Notes under the pieces: model-generated
Database searches by the model: none
What the model was told of the DNA's origin: nothing
What the model saw: only the letters and a program-made list of their open reading frames with translations
Made by a program: the position numbers and the translations under genes
Shown here: one piece after another, positions 5,383 through 19,426 of the stretch
Position numbering within the stretch: position 1 is the first letter of the stretch
Layout of the letters: the number at the start of each line of letters is the position of its first letter
Origin: a virus
DNA: 23,329 nucleotides
Reading direction: 5' to 3' (one strand)
IMG/VR virus record: IMGVR_UViG_3300022752_000407
Location: 1 to 23,329 of that record

Positions 5383-6801
5383 ATGGGTTCTCTTCATAGA
5401 TGGTTTAAGGGATCAAAATCAGTTGATGAAATACCTGGTTGGGTTGAAGTTATTTCTGGAGAACCTTGTGCTCGTGAAGAAGATGATAAAGATGAAACTC
5501 CAAAATGTGTTTCTTCCGATAAAAGAGCAAGTATGTCTAAATCAGAAAGAATATCTGCACAGAGAAGAAAAAGTGCTGCCGATCCAAATCAATCAGAAAA
5601 ATCTGATGCATCAAAACCAACTTATGTTTCAACGGATAAACCAAAAATGAACGAAGAATCGGATATTAAAGGTAAGGGTAGTGGAAAAAAAGATGCCTGT
5701 TACACAAAAGTAAAGTCAAGATATGATGTTTGGCCTTCTGCCTATGCATCTGGGGCACTTGTAAAATGTCGTAAGGTTGGTGCTGCTAATTGGGGAACAA
5801 AAAGTGAAGCAGTAAATCCTGCTCAACAAGCAGCGATTGCAATTTCTATGAAAAAGAAAGGAATTAAACCAAAAGAAATGAAAGAAGAAACTGGAATGAT
5901 TAGGTACTGTGCTAAATGTGAAAAAAATGAAACCAGAGATGAATGTAAATATGGACCCAAATATTGGGATATGTTTTCAACACCTTCCAGTCTTTCTCAA
6001 AATCAAATGAAGTTTAGTATTGCTCAAGTTCATCCTGCTAATGAGTCCAAAGAATACAAACAAATAAAAGAGAATCACAAAGAGATTCAAAGTGGTAAGG
6101 AAAAGGACGATGAAGGATATATGGCAAGAAGCGAATTTGACACGATTATGAAGGCAGTTTCTTTATTGAGAAAAAATATAAAAAAAGGAAATCAACAACT
6201 TCCTGCCTGGGTTCAATCAAAAATAACAAAGGCAACAGATTATATCGATACTGCCTCAGATTATCTAGATAGCGATGAAACGAATGTGGATGAGGCATGT
6301 TGGGACGGATATACTGCAAAAGGTATGAAGAAAAAGGGTAAAAAAATGGTTCCAAATTGTGTTCCTGTAAATGAGCAAGTAAGTGATACATCTACTCCTC
6401 AAGAAAAGTTTAACAGTCGAGTTAATGCCGCAAATGCACCTGGATTATCACAAAATCTTAAAGTAATAGTTCTTTCATCTGCCGCAAAACTTCATCCGGC
6501 AGCAAAAAAAACCTTCGAGTCCTTTATGATTGAGGCATCGGCTGCTTGGCAAAGAAAGGAAGGAAAAAATCCTAAAGGTGGATTGAATGCAGCAGGAGTG
6601 GTATCTTATAGGGAACAAAATCCAGGATCAAAATTACAAACAGCAGTTACTACTAAACCGTCAAAATTAAAACCAGGTTCAAAGGATGCAAAAAGAAGAA
6701 AGTCTTTCTGTGCTCGTATGAGTGGAATGCCTGGTCCAATGAAAGATAAAAAGGAACGCCCAACTAGAAAGGCACTTTCATTGAAAAGGTGGAATTGTTA
6801 G
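5383..6801 (+). CDS. Mosaic Cys/Lys-rich phage protein between terminase subunits
   Basis: The 472-residue, very Lys-rich product is built of modules known from T4-like cyanophages, but its function is unknown. Residues 1-60 carry W20-V with C29 and C42. Residues 101-140 (KKDACYTKVKSRYDVWPSAY, ALVKCRKVG) resemble the phage family I remember as DUF5872. A C176/C179/C188 cluster follows. Residues 245-300 form a helical module with LPAWVQSKITKATDYIDTA. Residues 304-327 hold a CWDGYTAKGMKKKG...PNC motif. Residues 375-472 (KKTFESFMIEASAAWQRK, then KRRKSFCARMSGM and a final RKALSLKRWNC) resemble a DUF6321-type domain, again from memory. The paired Cys residues and basic charge suggest nucleic-acid binding or a virion-internal role, which is inference. 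KTFESFMIEA at 376-385 resembles a capsid-targeting peptide; see findings. Confidence 0.75.
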   Translation: MGSLHRWFKGSKSVDEIPGWVEVISGEPCAREEDDKDETPKCVSSDKRASMSKSERISAQRRKSAADPNQSEKSDASKPTYVSTDKPKMNEESDIKGKGSGKKDACYTKVKSRYDVWPSAYASGALVKCRKVGAANWGTKSEAVNPAQQAAIAISMKKKGIKPKEMKEETGMIRYCAKCEKNETRDECKYGPKYWDMFSTPSSLSQNQMKFSIAQVHPANESKEYKQIKENHKEIQSGKEKDDEGYMARSEFDTIMKAVSLLRKNIKKGNQQLPAWVQSKITKATDYIDTASDYLDSDETNVDEACWDGYTAKGMKKKGKKMVPNCVPVNEQVSDTSTPQEKFNSRVNAANAPGLSQNLKVIVLSSAAKLHPAAKKTFESFMIEASAAWQRKEGKNPKGGLNAAGVVSYREQNPGSKLQTAVTTKPSKLKPGSKDAKRRKSFCARMSGMPGPMKDKKERPTRKALSLKRWNC

Positions 6802-13817: not shown

Positions 13818-14468
13818 ATGAAACTCATCACCGAAGACGTTCAGCAAGTTAAGTTTATTACTGAAGGTAAAGGACCATCTAAAAAAATGTTTATTGAAGG
13901 AGTTTTTCTTCAGGGTGATATCTGCAATCGAAATGGAAGAATGTATCCTATACAAACTTTAATGAAAGAGGTTAAAAGATATAATGAGGCATTTATTTGT
14001 AAGGGTCGTGCTCTTGGAGAACTTGGACACCCAGATGGTCCAACGGTCAATTTAGATAGAGTTTCTCATAAAATTATCAAACTAGAGCAAAGGGGAAATA
14101 ATTTTTTCGGTAAGGCGCAACTTCTTGAGACTCCGATGGGTAAGATTGCAAAAGCTCTTATTGCCGAAGGAGTTTGTCTTGGTGTCTCCTCTCGTGGTGT
14201 TGGATCACTTCAAGTTACTAATCAAGGACATAAAGTTGTTGGTGAAGATTTTATGTTGGCAACTGCGGCAGATCTTGTTGCAGATCCTTCTGCACCAGAT
14301 GCCTTTGTTCAGGGAATATTTGAAGGAAAGGAATGGGTTTTCTCGAATGGAAAACTAACAGAACAGTTAATTGAAAAAACAAATCGTAAAATTAACACTC
14401 TAGTTGATAGAAAATTATTGGAAGAATATAAAACTCAATTGTTTCAAGATTTTTTAGCAAATCTTTAA
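13818..14468 (+). CDS. 21: Prohead core protease gp21
   Basis: The 216-residue product is the T4-type prohead maturation protease (T4 gp21, 212 residues), a serine protease with a herpesvirus-assemblin-like fold. It cuts core and shell proteins after (L/I)-x-E. The catalytic His is H71 in ALGELGHPDG and the Ser lies in GVSSRGVGS (S124/S125). Downstream acidic residues are in the AADLVADPSAPDAF stretch. FIEGVFLQGDICNRNGRMYP at 25-44 also fits the family. The N-terminus MKLITED contains I-T-E, so self-cleavage is possible. Its presence makes the cleavage-site peptides elsewhere in this window meaningful. Confidence 0.94.
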   Translation: MKLITEDVQQVKFITEGKGPSKKMFIEGVFLQGDICNRNGRMYPIQTLMKEVKRYNEAFICKGRALGELGHPDGPTVNLDRVSHKIIKLEQRGNNFFGKAQLLETPMGKIAKALIAEGVCLGVSSRGVGSLQVTNQGHKVVGEDFMLATAADLVADPSAPDAFVQGIFEGKEWVFSNGKLTEQLIEKTNRKINTLVDRKLLEEYKTQLFQDFLANL

Positions 14469-14509: not shown

Positions 14510-15712
14510 ATGTCCGTTGGTAGAAATTTACAAGAAATGGAAAACGTAGTAACCAAAGGCGCTTCACCTGCCGAACCAATGCAAAAGTCTTCTTTAATAA
14601 CTCCCGGTCAAACTGATAGTTGGGAAGATTTAGGTGGACCAACCCCCGAAAATTATCGCCCAGATGATAATTCGGCAAAACTCAAAGATCCTTCATTAAC
14701 TCTTGCTCAAGTAAAGAATGTTGTAAATGCCAAGGCATGTGCAGCAGATACTATGAAGAGTGTAAAAGAAGAAGCAGAAGAAGAGGAAGAAGATGCTGAA
14801 GAGGAAAAAGATGATGAGGAAGAAAATGAGTCTAAAGCAAAACCTAAGAAAAAAAAGGTAGCAGAATCTCGTCGCAGTAAGAAATCTAAAGAGGAAGATG
14901 ACGAGGAAGATGATGAAGAAAATGACGAGGAAGAAGATGACGAGGAAGAAGATGAAGATGGTAAAAAAATGAAGAAAGAAGAGTTTGATGTTGAAGAAGA
15001 CGTTCAAGCTCTTCTTGCCGGTGAGGAACTCTCAGAAGAGTTTCAAGAAAAGGCAAGAACAATCTTTGAGGCAGCAATTCGTTCGAAAATTGTTGACATC
15101 AAAGAAGAACTTCAATATTCCTACGAGAAGGCACTCTTAGAACAAATTGAAACAATCAAAGAAGGTCTTGAAGACCGTGTTGATTCGTATCTAGAATATG
15201 TTGCCGACGAGTGGGTTAATCAAAATGCACTCGTGATTGAGCAAGGTCTCAAGACTGAAATGACCGAATCATTTCTACAAGGAATGAAGAGTCTTTTTGA
15301 AGATCATTATGTATCAATCCCTGAAGAGAAATATGATGTAGTTGAGAGTATGGTAGATAAACTTGATGAAATGGAAGGAAAACTCAACGAGCAAATTGAA
15401 AGAAATGTTGCTCTAAACAGAAGACTAGCAGAGTCCGTTGCTGATGTAATTTTTGCAGATATCTCAGAAGGTCTTGCACTTTCTCAGAAGGATAAACTCT
15501 CTTCTCTTGCCGCGAATGTTGAGTTTGATAGTGAAGAAAACTATCGTGAGAAACTAGTAACCTTAAGGGAGTCTTATTTCCCACATAACGCTGGTGCTCA
15601 AAGAGATGACTCTGAAACTTTGACTGAAAGTACCGATGTTCAATCCAATCAACCACAAGTTGATGGAAGAATGGCATCATATCTTCAAACTTTAGGAAGA
15701 GTCGCAAAATAG
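14510..15712 (+). CDS. 22: Prohead scaffolding core protein gp22
   Basis: The 400-residue product sits between gp21 and gp23 and is the main scaffold, degraded by gp21 as the head matures. T4 gp22 is 269 residues. Residues about 165-320 form the helical core (LLAGEELSEEFQEKARTIFE, then AAIRSKIVDIKEELQYSYEK). T-I-F-E|A at 184-188 is a good gp21 site. Residues about 86-160 are an extreme charged tract of runs of Glu/Asp broken by KPKKKK and RRSKKSK, which accounts for much of the extra length. The C-terminus (VDGRMASYLQTLGRVAK) is basic like other gp22 ends. The acidic tract may keep space for DNA or bind basic internal proteins; this is inference. Confidence 0.9.
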   Translation: MSVGRNLQEMENVVTKGASPAEPMQKSSLITPGQTDSWEDLGGPTPENYRPDDNSAKLKDPSLTLAQVKNVVNAKACAADTMKSVKEEAEEEEEDAEEEKDDEEENESKAKPKKKKVAESRRSKKSKEEDDEEDDEENDEEEDDEEEDEDGKKMKKEEFDVEEDVQALLAGEELSEEFQEKARTIFEAAIRSKIVDIKEELQYSYEKALLEQIETIKEGLEDRVDSYLEYVADEWVNQNALVIEQGLKTEMTESFLQGMKSLFEDHYVSIPEEKYDVVESMVDKLDEMEGKLNEQIERNVALNRRLAESVADVIFADISEGLALSQKDKLSSLAANVEFDSEENYREKLVTLRESYFPHNAGAQRDDSETLTESTDVQSNQPQVDGRMASYLQTLGRVAK

Positions 15713-15763: not shown

Positions 15764-17182
15764 ATGCAAATGTTCAACACAGAATATTTGCAGGAGAAGT
15801 GGGCTCCAATTCTCGACTATTCGGGATTGGATCAAATCAAAGATTCTCATCGTAGATCTGTAACCGCTATCCTGCTAGAAAATCAAGAAAGAGAACTGCG
15901 CGAAGAAAGTGCTTTTCTTTACGAAACCCCATCAATGGCAACCGCTTCAAGTGCTGGTGCTGCCGGATTTGGTGGTAGTGCTCAAGGTTTTAGTGCTGGT
16001 CCTACTGCAGGTTTCGATCCAGTTCTGATCTCCCTGATCAGACGCTCAATGCCTAATTTGATCGCCTATGATCTTTGTGGCGTTCAACCAATGAACGGTC
16101 CTACTGGACTTATTTTTGCAATGCGTTCTCGCTATAGCAATCAGACTAGTGGAACAGAAGCATTCTATAACGAATCTAATTCAGCATTCTCTGGTCAGGA
16201 TGCAGGATTTGATGTAACAACCGGATTTACCGGCGCTTCCGTTGGTATGGGTACAACTGCTCAAGGTGGAAATAATCCTTCTATTCTTTCAGCTAACCAG
16301 GCAAACAATGCTGGAGTTGGTGATGATCAATATAACGTTGGTCAGGGTATGCGTACCGATAGCTCTGAAGCACTAGGAGATTCTTCAGGAAACAACTTCA
16401 ATGAAATGGCATTCTCGATTGAGAAAGTCACCGTAACTGCAAAGTCAAGAGCACTCAAGGCTGAGTACTCACTTGAGCTTGCTCAAGACCTCAAGGCAAT
16501 TCACGGTCTGAATGCGGAAGCTGAACTTGCCAACATTCTCTCTACAGAGATTCTTGCTGAAATTAACCGCGAAGTTATTCGTACCGTTTATAAGATTGCC
16601 AAGCCAGGTGCTCAGGCAAACACTGCAACTGCCGGTATTTTTGACCTCGATGTTGATTCCAACGGTCGTTGGTCTGTTGAGAAGTTCAAAGGTCTTATCT
16701 TCCAAATCGAGCGCGATGCTAACGCTATTGCTCAGCAAACTCGTAGAGGAAAAGGTAATATGATTCTTTGCTCCGCAGACGTTGCTTCGGCACTTGCGAT
16801 GGCAGGAGTTCTGGATTATACCCCTGCACTCAATGCAAACTTGAACGTTGATGATACTGGCAATACTTTCGCCGGAGTTCTTCAAGGAAAGTATAAGGTT
16901 TATATTGATCCTTATTCCGCAAACGTGTCTCCTAATCAGTTCTATGTTGTTGGTTATAAGGGTTCTTCTGCATATGATGCAGGTCTATTCTACTGCCCTT
17001 ATGTTCCTCTCCAAATGGTTCGCGCCGTTGGTGAGAACACCTTCCAACCAAAAATTGGATTTAAGACACGCTATGGAATGGTTGCCAATCCATTTGCTGA
17101 AGGTGCAACTGTAGGACAAGGAGCACTTACAACTAACTCTAACGTATATTACAGAAGAGTTAAAGTTGCCAACCTTATGTGA
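15764..17182 (+). CDS. 23: Major capsid protein gp23
   Basis: The 472-residue product is the T4-type hexamer capsid protein; T4 gp23 is 521 residues, and marine forms are typically near this length. The start (WAPILDYSGLDQIKDSHRR) and the HK97-fold body are clear. Landmarks are PVLISLIRRSMPNLIAYDLC near 85-104, the PMNGPTGLIFAMRSRY segment, EKVTVTAKSRALKAEYSLEL near 219-238, and the C-terminal PFAEGATVGQ. gp21 probably removes the first 50-60 residues; L-Y-E|T near 52-55 is one possible site. An AGAGG Shine-Dalgarno at 15751-15755 lies 8 bases before the ATG. Codons are noticeably richer in C-ending forms than in neighbouring genes, as expected for the most abundant protein. A strong terminator follows. 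Confidence 0.96.
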   Translation: MQMFNTEYLQEKWAPILDYSGLDQIKDSHRRSVTAILLENQERELREESAFLYETPSMATASSAGAAGFGGSAQGFSAGPTAGFDPVLISLIRRSMPNLIAYDLCGVQPMNGPTGLIFAMRSRYSNQTSGTEAFYNESNSAFSGQDAGFDVTTGFTGASVGMGTTAQGGNNPSILSANQANNAGVGDDQYNVGQGMRTDSSEALGDSSGNNFNEMAFSIEKVTVTAKSRALKAEYSLELAQDLKAIHGLNAEAELANILSTEILAEINREVIRTVYKIAKPGAQANTATAGIFDLDVDSNGRWSVEKFKGLIFQIERDANAIAQQTRRGKGNMILCSADVASALAMAGVLDYTPALNANLNVDDTGNTFAGVLQGKYKVYIDPYSANVSPNQFYVVGYKGSSAYDAGLFYCPYVPLQMVRAVGENTFQPKIGFKTRYGMVANPFAEGATVGQGALTTNSNVYYRRVKVANLM

Positions 17183-17202: not shown

Positions 17203-17228
17203 AGGGGAACCTTCGGGTTCCCTTTTTT
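17203..17228 (+). terminator. Rho-independent terminator after gp23
   Basis: GGGAACC at 17205-17211 pairs with GGTTCCC at 17216-17222 around a TTCG tetraloop, with two further weaker pairs at the base. TTTTTT follows at 17223-17228. This is a textbook intrinsic terminator, 20 bases after the gp23 stop, separating capsid genes from the accessory and recombination block. Confidence 0.93.
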
Positions 17229-17252
17229 ATTCAAATAAATAAGATTAAAAAG

Positions 17253-17654
17253 ATGAAAACTTTCAATCAATTTATATTTGAAGCAAATAAGTTAGGTGTA
17301 ATTGTTTCCACAAGCTCATATGGACCAGGATTGTATGGAAATCCAACAGCATCTGGAGAAACCCTTACTCCATCTACCAGAGGAGTTGCACACAAAACTT
17401 TACCATTAGGAAGTAAAGTAAAAATTACAGATCCACAAACCAAAAAATCAGTAGAAACATCAGTAATTGATAGAGGTCCATATCACGGAAATCGTGAATA
17501 TGATTTAACTACAGGTACTACGAATGATATAGGATATAAAGATTATAGACAATTTGGAGTCAGAAATCTTGATGTCACACCAATTACAAATAAACCAAAA
17601 ATAGAAAAACAAAAAGTAACCAAAAGTAAAGGATTAATGTCCGGAAGGTATTGA
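17253..17654 (+). CDS. RlpA-like double-psi beta-barrel protein with capsid-targeting N-terminus
   Basis: This 133-residue protein has an RlpA-type double-psi beta-barrel at about residues 16-110, the fold of a peptidoglycan lytic transglycosylase. Landmarks are SSYGPGLYGNPTASGE, VAHKTLPLGSKVKI, VIDRGPYHG and EYDLT. E36, H47 and D73 fall at the same relative spacing as the conserved Glu, His and Asp that I recall from bacterial RlpA (Glu to Asp 37 residues apart), so the active site looks intact. There is no secretion signal. Instead it begins MKTFNQFIFEA, nearly the capsid-targeting peptide of T4 internal protein III (MKTYQEFIAEA), with I-F-E|A as the gp21 site. It is probably packaged in the head. 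The C-terminus is a Lys-rich tail (PKIEKQKVTKSKG). An AATAAATA box at 17234-17241 may be a weak late promoter. Confidence 0.8.
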   Translation: MKTFNQFIFEANKLGVIVSTSSYGPGLYGNPTASGETLTPSTRGVAHKTLPLGSKVKITDPQTKKSVETSVIDRGPYHGNREYDLTTGTTNDIGYKDYRQFGVRNLDVTPITNKPKIEKQKVTKSKGLMSGRY

Positions 17655-18670: not shown

Positions 18671-19426
18671 ATGAAAACGTTTCGAGAATTTATTTTAGAA
18701 GCAAAAAATAAATATGGAATTCCAGATGAAGAATATTTAAAGTGGCAACAAGATAGAGCATCAGGAAAAGGTCCAGCACGAAAAATTTTTAATGGCATCG
18801 CATATGAGATGAGAAATAAAGCTGGTAAAGGAAACCCAAAAGTATGGGCAGTTAGTCCAGTTTTAGATAGAGAAGCATCATCTAGGAAAAGAAAAGAAGC
18901 AGAACAAAAATATGCACTCAGTCAAGATGAACTCCGTAACGCTGCAGGAGGAGAAGAAGAAAGAGTTGCTCTAGCAAAAGATACCGAAGAAACTGGAATT
19001 AAGAAGATAATAAAAAGAAGACAAAGAATTCAAAAAGCAACAGGAGTTAAACTGAGTTTAGGACACAAACAACCACTTCAACCAGATGATCCAAATTCAG
19101 AAGATCCTGGTCATTCATTGTCTAATGTTAACATAGAACCATTCAGTTCAAACGCATCGAAGAAAAACAGAAGACCTGAACCGGGAGAACCTGGATATGG
19201 TCTTACTAGAACACAAGCATCCCAAGATGCTCTAAGAAGAGGAGATAAATTAGGTAAAAATATAGATAGAGAAATTGAGTTACTGAGATCAGGAAGTCCA
19301 TCTAGATCTGCAAATTTATTAGCAAGGTTGAGAAGGTTAGGAAGACCAAAACCAAAAAATACTGGGGCAGCAGAAAGAATGTCTGCTGCATATGATGAAA
19401 AAATTGAAAAAGCATTAAATACTTAA
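18671..19426 (+). CDS. HNH-like protein with capsid-targeting N-terminus
   Basis: The 251-residue, strongly basic protein begins MKTFREFILEA, again close to the T4 internal-protein capsid-targeting peptide with I-L-E|A as a gp21 site. Residues about 111-170 resemble a minimal HNH/beta-beta-alpha-Me core. A basic helix (KKIIKRRQRIQKATG) is followed by L-G-H132-K-Q-P, then P-G-H148-S-L-S-N152, an E156, and S-N161-A-S-K-K-N-R. This corresponds to the H...N...N/H order of HNH nucleases with a final Asn. Residues 171-251 are basic and helical. No zinc Cys pairs are present. I infer a head-packaged protein, possibly a nuclease acting on DNA after injection. It could instead be an inactive DNA-binding internal protein. 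It lies between uvsY and uvsW, with CTAAATA at 18644-18650 as a possible weak late promoter. Confidence 0.65.
   Translation: MKTFREFILEAKNKYGIPDEEYLKWQQDRASGKGPARKIFNGIAYEMRNKAGKGNPKVWAVSPVLDREASSRKRKEAEQKYALSQDELRNAAGGEEERVALAKDTEETGIKKIIKRRQRIQKATGVKLSLGHKQPLQPDDPNSEDPGHSLSNVNIEPFSSNASKKNRRPEPGEPGYGLTRTQASQDALRRGDKLGKNIDREIELLRSGSPSRSANLLARLRRLGRPKPKNTGAAERMSAAYDEKIEKALNT

Follow-up and report, generated by a model that had tools for sequence, protein, structure and literature searches.

A T4-type capsid-targeting peptide on an RlpA-type barrel of a cyanophage: a candidate head-stored, wall-acting protein

A small gene in the head gene cluster of a T4-type cyanophage encodes an RlpA-type double-psi beta-barrel which, to judge from its sequence, carries a T4-type capsid-targeting peptide (CTS) where other cyanophage RlpAs mostly have a secretion signal. 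We propose, at a probability of roughly 0.45, that the gene product is an internal head protein that is ejected at infection and acts on the host wall. Residues 1-10 would dock the protein in the prohead core, gp21 would cut after Glu10 and leave a basic 13-kDa barrel among the packaged DNA, the barrel would exit the head together with the DNA at infection, and it would then act on the glycan strands of peptidoglycan where the DNA enters or close by, Asp73 being the proposed catalyst. These steps are not equally strong. Prohead loading and trimming after Glu10 are likely, given the conservation, context and modularity of the tag, and ejection with the DNA is rather probable by analogy with the T4 internal proteins. 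Action on peptidoglycan with Asp73 as catalyst, which the fold suggests, is the weakest step and we put it forward tentatively, at somewhat below even odds.

The tagged gene, its neighbours and its relatives

The DNA analyzed, referred to here as the window, comprises 23,329 nt (positions 1-23,329 of IMGVR_UViG_3300022752_000407) and represents a 23-kb piece of the genome of a T4-type cyanophage of the cyanomyovirus type. S-SRM01, a freshwater Synechococcus phage, has a gp23 with 82.5% identity to that of the window, and the gp23 of P-SSM2 has 77% identity. The head genes and the parts of the tagged gene are located as follows.

13818-14468, plus strand: gp21 prohead protease, presumed to process the tagged protein (Peptidase_S77, E = 1.5e-34; phrog_207, E = 6e-77)
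14510-15712, plus strand: gp22 scaffold, by analogy with T4 the presumed docking partner of the tagged protein (T4_CASP, E = 2.9e-77)
15764-17182, plus strand: gp23 major capsid protein (Gp23, E = 2e-154)
17253-17654, plus strand: whole ORF of 133 aa with an ATG start, consisting of CTS, RlpA-type barrel and basic tail
17253-17282, plus strand: CTS MKTFNQFIFE, residues 1-10 (from conservation, selection and the T4 mutational map, PMC9026906)
17282/17283, plus strand: predicted site of gp21 cleavage (E10/A11)
17310-17585, plus strand: RlpA-type double-psi beta-barrel, residues about 20-111 (from Pfam, conservation and model)
17391-17393 and 17469-17471, plus strand: H47 and D73, both conserved; E36 at 17358-17360 is not
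17586-17651, plus strand: Lys-rich disordered tail, residues 112-133 (pLDDT about 36-53)

The 133-residue product opens with MKTFNQFIFEANKLGVIVSTSSYGPGLYGN, and its putative gp21 substrate sequence is MKTFNQFIFEANKLG. The gene is preceded immediately by gp21, gp22 and gp23, in this order, and followed immediately by gp3 and uvsY; the presence of gp21 in the same genome, stated in the initial annotation of this DNA, is thus borne out. Across 80 loci with a related gene, gp23 is the immediate 5' neighbour in 63 and gp3 the immediate 3' neighbour in 69, and all seven of the long contigs carrying the RlpA-type gene contain gp21. Because the same slot is occupied by unrelated genes in S-SRM01 and P-SSM2, we consider the gene accessory. 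A strong terminator-like hairpin with 9 pairs, a TTCG loop and a T run lies between gp23 and the RlpA-type gene, at 17203-17224. The sequence ATAAATA at 17235 was considered as a late promoter and dismissed, as its frequency in the window is at chance level. In one contig (L029/L241) the RlpA ORF runs on into gp3, an apparent deletion fusion.

Our first search for relatives was seeded with the whole protein, N-terminus included, and it was for this reason redone with the barrel alone. The barrel-only search kept 80 loci, whose 50 distinct sequences belong to a single clade, and left out 26 weaker matches. The N-terminal peptide that the initial annotation had proposed to look for in front of barrel domains is encoded at the DNA level in all 80 loci, in strict form in 69 (MK[TS]F..F[ILMV].EA, where M may be V with a GTG start), as a variant in 10 (for example FQEQ) and frame-shifted in one; with a single clade sampled and the weaker matches left aside, this means that the clade is uniformly tagged, and not every RlpA. 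A lack of the CTS in locus L266 was ruled out, as the tag is there, out of frame with the barrel.

Within the tag, K2, F7, E10 and A11 are invariant in the 49 distinct main-group sequences and F4 is present in 48 of them; position 8 is restricted to I, L, M and V, and the most variable position is 9 (P2). The tag codons have undergone synonymous changes, with amino-acid changes nearly nil at positions 2, 4, 7, 10 and 11, and simple pairwise counting over non-independent pairs put dN/dS at 0.08 in the tag and 0.10 in the barrel, compared with 0.28 in the linker. The CTS of T4 IPIII has 10 residues, and mutations map targeting to positions 4 and 7 and processing to positions 8 and 10 (PMC9026906). 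An E10D form of T4 IPIII is reported to be loaded and left uncut. Conservation of the cyanophage tag coincides with these four positions, P2 is free as the T4 map predicts, and the tag shows the T4-type pattern of hydrophobic or aromatic residues at 4, 7 and 8 and a Glu at 10. Hence, the claim that a T4-type capsid-targeting peptide precedes the barrel holds, as a non-chance match whose residues are conserved in relatives. The probable gp21 site in the gp23 of the window reads FLYE/T (FLSE/A in its S-SRM01 and P-SSM2 counterpart), so that an aromatic P2, as in FIFE/A, is plausible for the gp21 of this phage.

We also compared the N-termini of other RlpA-type proteins, with signal-peptide calls made by eye and hydropathy. 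The proteins of S-PM2, S-CREM1, B23, S-CRM01 and S-CBWM1 have signal-peptide-like hydrophobic N-termini, the phiM12 protein shows a lipobox-like start, and the S-CBP4 protein only a short hydrophobic N-terminus. None of these carries the tag, and it is absent from all 81 barrel domains taken from cellular loci. The tagged protein has neither a signal peptide nor a lipobox, with a hydropathy maximum of 1.4 compared to 1.8-2.4 in five secreted phage forms. In a tree, the tagged barrels make up one side of a branch with 100/100 support, the branch being long and based on few columns.

The same tag on other cargo and in virions

We scanned IMG/VR with a degenerate 32-base pattern encoding MK[TS]Fx[EQ]F(hydrophobic)xEA. 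The pattern occurs in at least 120 stretches, and its reversed form gave 0 matches. Among the matches listed, 121 tagged ORFs of at least 60 aa fall into at least 47 cargo clusters without similarity outside the tag at a blastp E of 1e-4, some of which might be merged by remote homology. Pfam matches of the cargo include a GNAT acetyltransferase (E = 5.6e-9), a cytidylyltransferase/NMNAT (E = 6.4e-6), DUF5661 and DUF6321. The ART-like cargo mostly matched no Pfam family, apart from one PARP match with an E of 4e-4, under the family cut-off. Two contigs (L092:3736-4529 and L186:9465-10408) have an adjacent pair of CTS genes, one ART-like with an HGT-type motif and the other GNAT acetyltransferase-like. 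A glucosaminidase (PF01832; GH73-type) follows the CTS in L175:6253-7065 (E = 3.8e-13) and L182:685-1323 (E = 1.1e-13). By sequence this would be a second wall-hydrolase family on the tag, and it independently hints at the usefulness of wall enzymes as cargo.

The window itself contains the tag three times, in the RlpA-type gene and at two other places.

6508-6537, plus strand: internal CTS-like KTFESFMIEA, residues 376-385 of the 5383-6801 protein
18671-19426, plus strand: second CTS ORF, starting MKTFREFILEA, basic and weakly endonuclease VII-like (phrog_1035, E = 0.004)

Contig L128 also encodes a homologue of the second CTS ORF; tblastn of this ORF against named phage records gave no match. 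In the 5383-6801 protein a C-terminal DUF6321 begins just after the internal peptide. As DUF6321 comes immediately behind an N-terminal CTS in contig L196, gp21 might free DUF6321 from the 5383-6801 protein. Of 20 long CTS contigs only 10 have Peptidase_S77 (gp21), which speaks against the reading; the other ten also lack gp23 and are possibly fragments. In this co-occurrence comparison phrog_20 proved to be a poor marker.

As one peptide recurs on dozens of proteins that are otherwise unrelated, it may serve generally to load proteins that are delivered with the DNA. The wider idea that T4-type phages of aquatic bacteria use the CTS to load a broad repertoire of exchangeable, injected effectors, with its at least 47 cargo clusters and with some members directed at the wall, is possible and still rather doubtful. 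If it is true, contractile-tailed phages would deliver RlpA-type barrels and glucosaminidases out of the head onto the wall of the host, and there would be a sequence rule predicting which unknown proteins of abundant ocean and lake phages ride in the particle and are the first to enter the host.

Published virion proteomes contain CTS-like proteins. The S-CREM2 virion list (PMC10665884) includes the gp6 SAM hydrolase (MKDFDSFLEE), gp13 (MKDLHSFLTE), the gp14 kinase (VKRFDAFLTE) and the gp154 cytidylyltransferase (MKNFSSFLTE); a text search of that paper for capsid targeting found no mention. S-SCSM1 virions (PMC9602691) yielded the NMNAT (MKSFLQFLKEA), and gp30, which has a good CTS, went undetected. 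In S-SZBM1 virions (PMC9146016) a cytidylyltransferase with the shifted form MRFRQFIIEA was detected, and gp191 (with a good CTS) and gp192 were undetected. S-SM1 has a homologue of T4-GC190 that starts MKKFSAFLNEA, and members of this family have been detected in the virions of that phage (PMC3037559).

With one motif definition, 5 of 8 CTS-like proteins were detected against 1.54 expected (P = 0.008), the motif having been tightened after the S-CREM2 data were seen; five definitions, each applied alike to three genomes, gave P values of 0.072, 0.051, 0.0081, 0.16 and 0.014. Since P varies with the motif definition and the 0.008 form is post hoc, the enrichment of CTS-like proteins among cyanophage virion proteins is suggestive only. 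The signal comes mostly from one phage, and the cytidylyltransferases are orthologous and therefore not independent cases. The strict family motif occurs in one protein only of the three proteome genomes, and this protein was detected. The comparison rests on phages that lack the RlpA-type CTS gene, and carry-over is considered possible by the authors of the S-CREM2 study (PMC10665884). A widespread family of ∼105 aa with the CTS-like start MKTFKQFMSESVNISGDFNG is found in S-SZBM1 (gp191), S-SCSM1 (gp30) and contigs L111, L171 and L207; undetected in two virion proteomes, it is a possible counter-example. Near the N-terminus of S-CREM2 (OR473000) gp12, a virion protein annotated as a Cas9 nuclease, there is an internal CTS-like stretch, RFASFMAEA; the start codon of gp12 may be misplaced. 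In published proteomes, proteins of the CTS-like kind are classed as hypothetical or as potential contaminants, and with the tag the question whether they are carried in the particle can be tested on existing data.

The barrel and its possible role

The RlpA double-psi barrel named in the initial annotation was recovered by each method used. Pfam matched DPBB_1 at residues 27-96 (E = 1.4e-8), and phmmer against the PDB matched 4avr (PA4485) with an E of 1.9e-10. An AlphaFold2 model with 32 family members as input showed the barrel at pLDDT >90, an N-terminal helix at residues 4-12 at moderate confidence, and a disordered, basic tail. The best structural match of the model was again 4avr (Foldseek E = 1.3e-8; VIA-align Z 15.6 over 94 residues at 1.8 A), so that the structure prediction against RlpA, which had been suggested as a check, returned a double-psi barrel. 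The RlpA-type domain of the baseplate hub of cyanophage A-1(L) (8kea) aligned with a Z of 14.3. DPBB_1 was the sole domain that Pfam found in the 133 aa, and there was no C-terminal SPOR domain.

The proposed active-site residues E36, H47 and D73 are all present in this protein, but E36 is no feature of the family. D73 is found in 49 of 49 distinct main-group relatives, H47 in 48 and E36 in 8; in 81 domains of the nearest cellular relatives, the equivalent of D73 is present in all 81, H47 in 56 and E36 in 4. We considered that Glu36 was lost by decay after a move to the head and rejected this, as the nearest cellular relatives are without Glu36 too. Hence, its absence is no sign of decay, and E36 merely drops out of the argument. 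Conservation concentrates on the enzyme-type motifs of the tagged barrels, and the glycan-cleft loops are, like Asp73 and His47, strongly conserved. An MltA-like enzyme relies on an Asp in its 3D domain (PMC10127604), so D73 alone may suffice. Of the earlier idea of a capsid-loaded, injected, peptidoglycan-active protein, the capsid targeting is well supported, by conservation at the T4-mapped residues, gp21 in the cluster, a tag in place of a signal peptide, the portability of this tag and, suggestively only, CTS-like proteins of other cyanophages in virions; the catalytic set originally given stands only in part.

T4 internal proteins enter the cytoplasm, a wall-free compartment. A wall enzyme delivered in this way would need release into the periplasm, as with T7 gp16, or would have another role. 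One such role is that of a cytoplasmic binder, directed for example against a host defence protein as is T4 IPI*. The T-even internal proteins are diverse defence proteins with only the CTS in common (PMC3012670), and a binder would be consistent with the many other cargo proteins that look intracellular (GNAT, NMNAT, ART-like, nuclease-like) and with the poor conservation of E36. We nevertheless regard it as unlikely, because Asp73, His47 and the glycan-cleft loops are so strongly conserved and because the same tag is present on a second wall-hydrolase family.

Alternatively, the protein could be structural, a basic part of the head associated with core or DNA like IPIII, in which the barrel provides stability or DNA contact. 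The mature, CTS-free protein has a pI of 9.8 and a Lys-rich tail, the adjacent gp22 is strongly acidic (pI 4.3), and the gene sits in the head gene cluster. Secreted cyanophage RlpAs are no less basic, which also makes a basic pI a weak sign of head storage; in addition, the gene is accessory, its slot being filled otherwise in S-SRM01 and P-SSM2, and the enzyme-type motifs are where conservation centres. A purely structural role thus appears quite improbable. That the N-terminus is a mere amphipathic helix and the protein a late lysis helper, which stays in the cytoplasm and reaches the wall after holin damage, is very unlikely: secreted RlpAs are common in cyanophages and residues 4-12 are modelled as a helix, but the tag is found on at least 47 unrelated cargo clusters, is under selection at the T4-mapped residues and occurs on virion-detected proteins.

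If the barrel is instead ejected from the head and acts on the wall, as we propose, there would be one more step in the way T4-type DNA crosses the cyanobacterial wall, a process of which little is understood.

Comparison with known systems

One tag with diverse cargo is a known principle of T-even phages (PMC3012670, PMC9026906). For the CTS in cyanophages, our literature search returned nothing beyond T4 reviews, and no report of RlpA-type or glucosaminidase cargo on a CTS was found in the literature covered, which included little subscription literature, so that the absence of an earlier report is provisional. The tagged protein resembles T4 IPI, IPII, IPIII and Alt in the key positions of the N-terminal tag, the presence of gp21 in the phage, the basic mature protein and the accessory, exchangeable cargo. 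It differs from the T4 internal proteins in that the cargo is an RlpA-type barrel and the phage a cyanomyovirus, and in that virion presence, cutting and injection are here predicted from sequence.

With the septal lytic transglycosylase RlpA of P. aeruginosa and with PA4485 (4avr), the tagged protein shares the double-psi fold, Asp73 and His47. In contrast to these, it has a CTS instead of signal peptide, lipobox and SPOR domain, and E36 is unconserved in its relatives; judged by the absence of signal peptide and SPOR domain, it is not an RlpA lipoprotein. The secreted cyanophage RlpAs (S-PM2 p158, S-CREM1 51, S-CRM01 109c and B23 360) have the same barrel and occur in the same kind of phage, but they possess signal-peptide-like N-termini, belong to a separate clade and have a different gene neighbourhood. 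The baseplate hub of A-1(L) likewise contains an RlpA-type barrel of a cyanophage, which is carried in the virion; there, however, it is a domain of a large tail hub, whereas here it is a free CTS-tagged ORF of 133 aa between gp23 and gp3.

The NMNAT/cytidylyltransferase, kinase and SAM hydrolase of S-SM1, S-SCSM1 and S-CREM2 virions are similar in having a CTS or CTS-like N-terminus and in being accessory, and differ in being enzymes of an intracellular type. A precedent for a capsid-stored wall enzyme is T7 gp16, which cuts the wall, is stored in the head and is ejected at infection (PMC8954989). It is a large podovirus protein with an SLT fold and no CTS, whereas the tagged protein has no SLT-type domain, DPBB_1 alone being found in its 133 aa, and would reach the head by means of its CTS.
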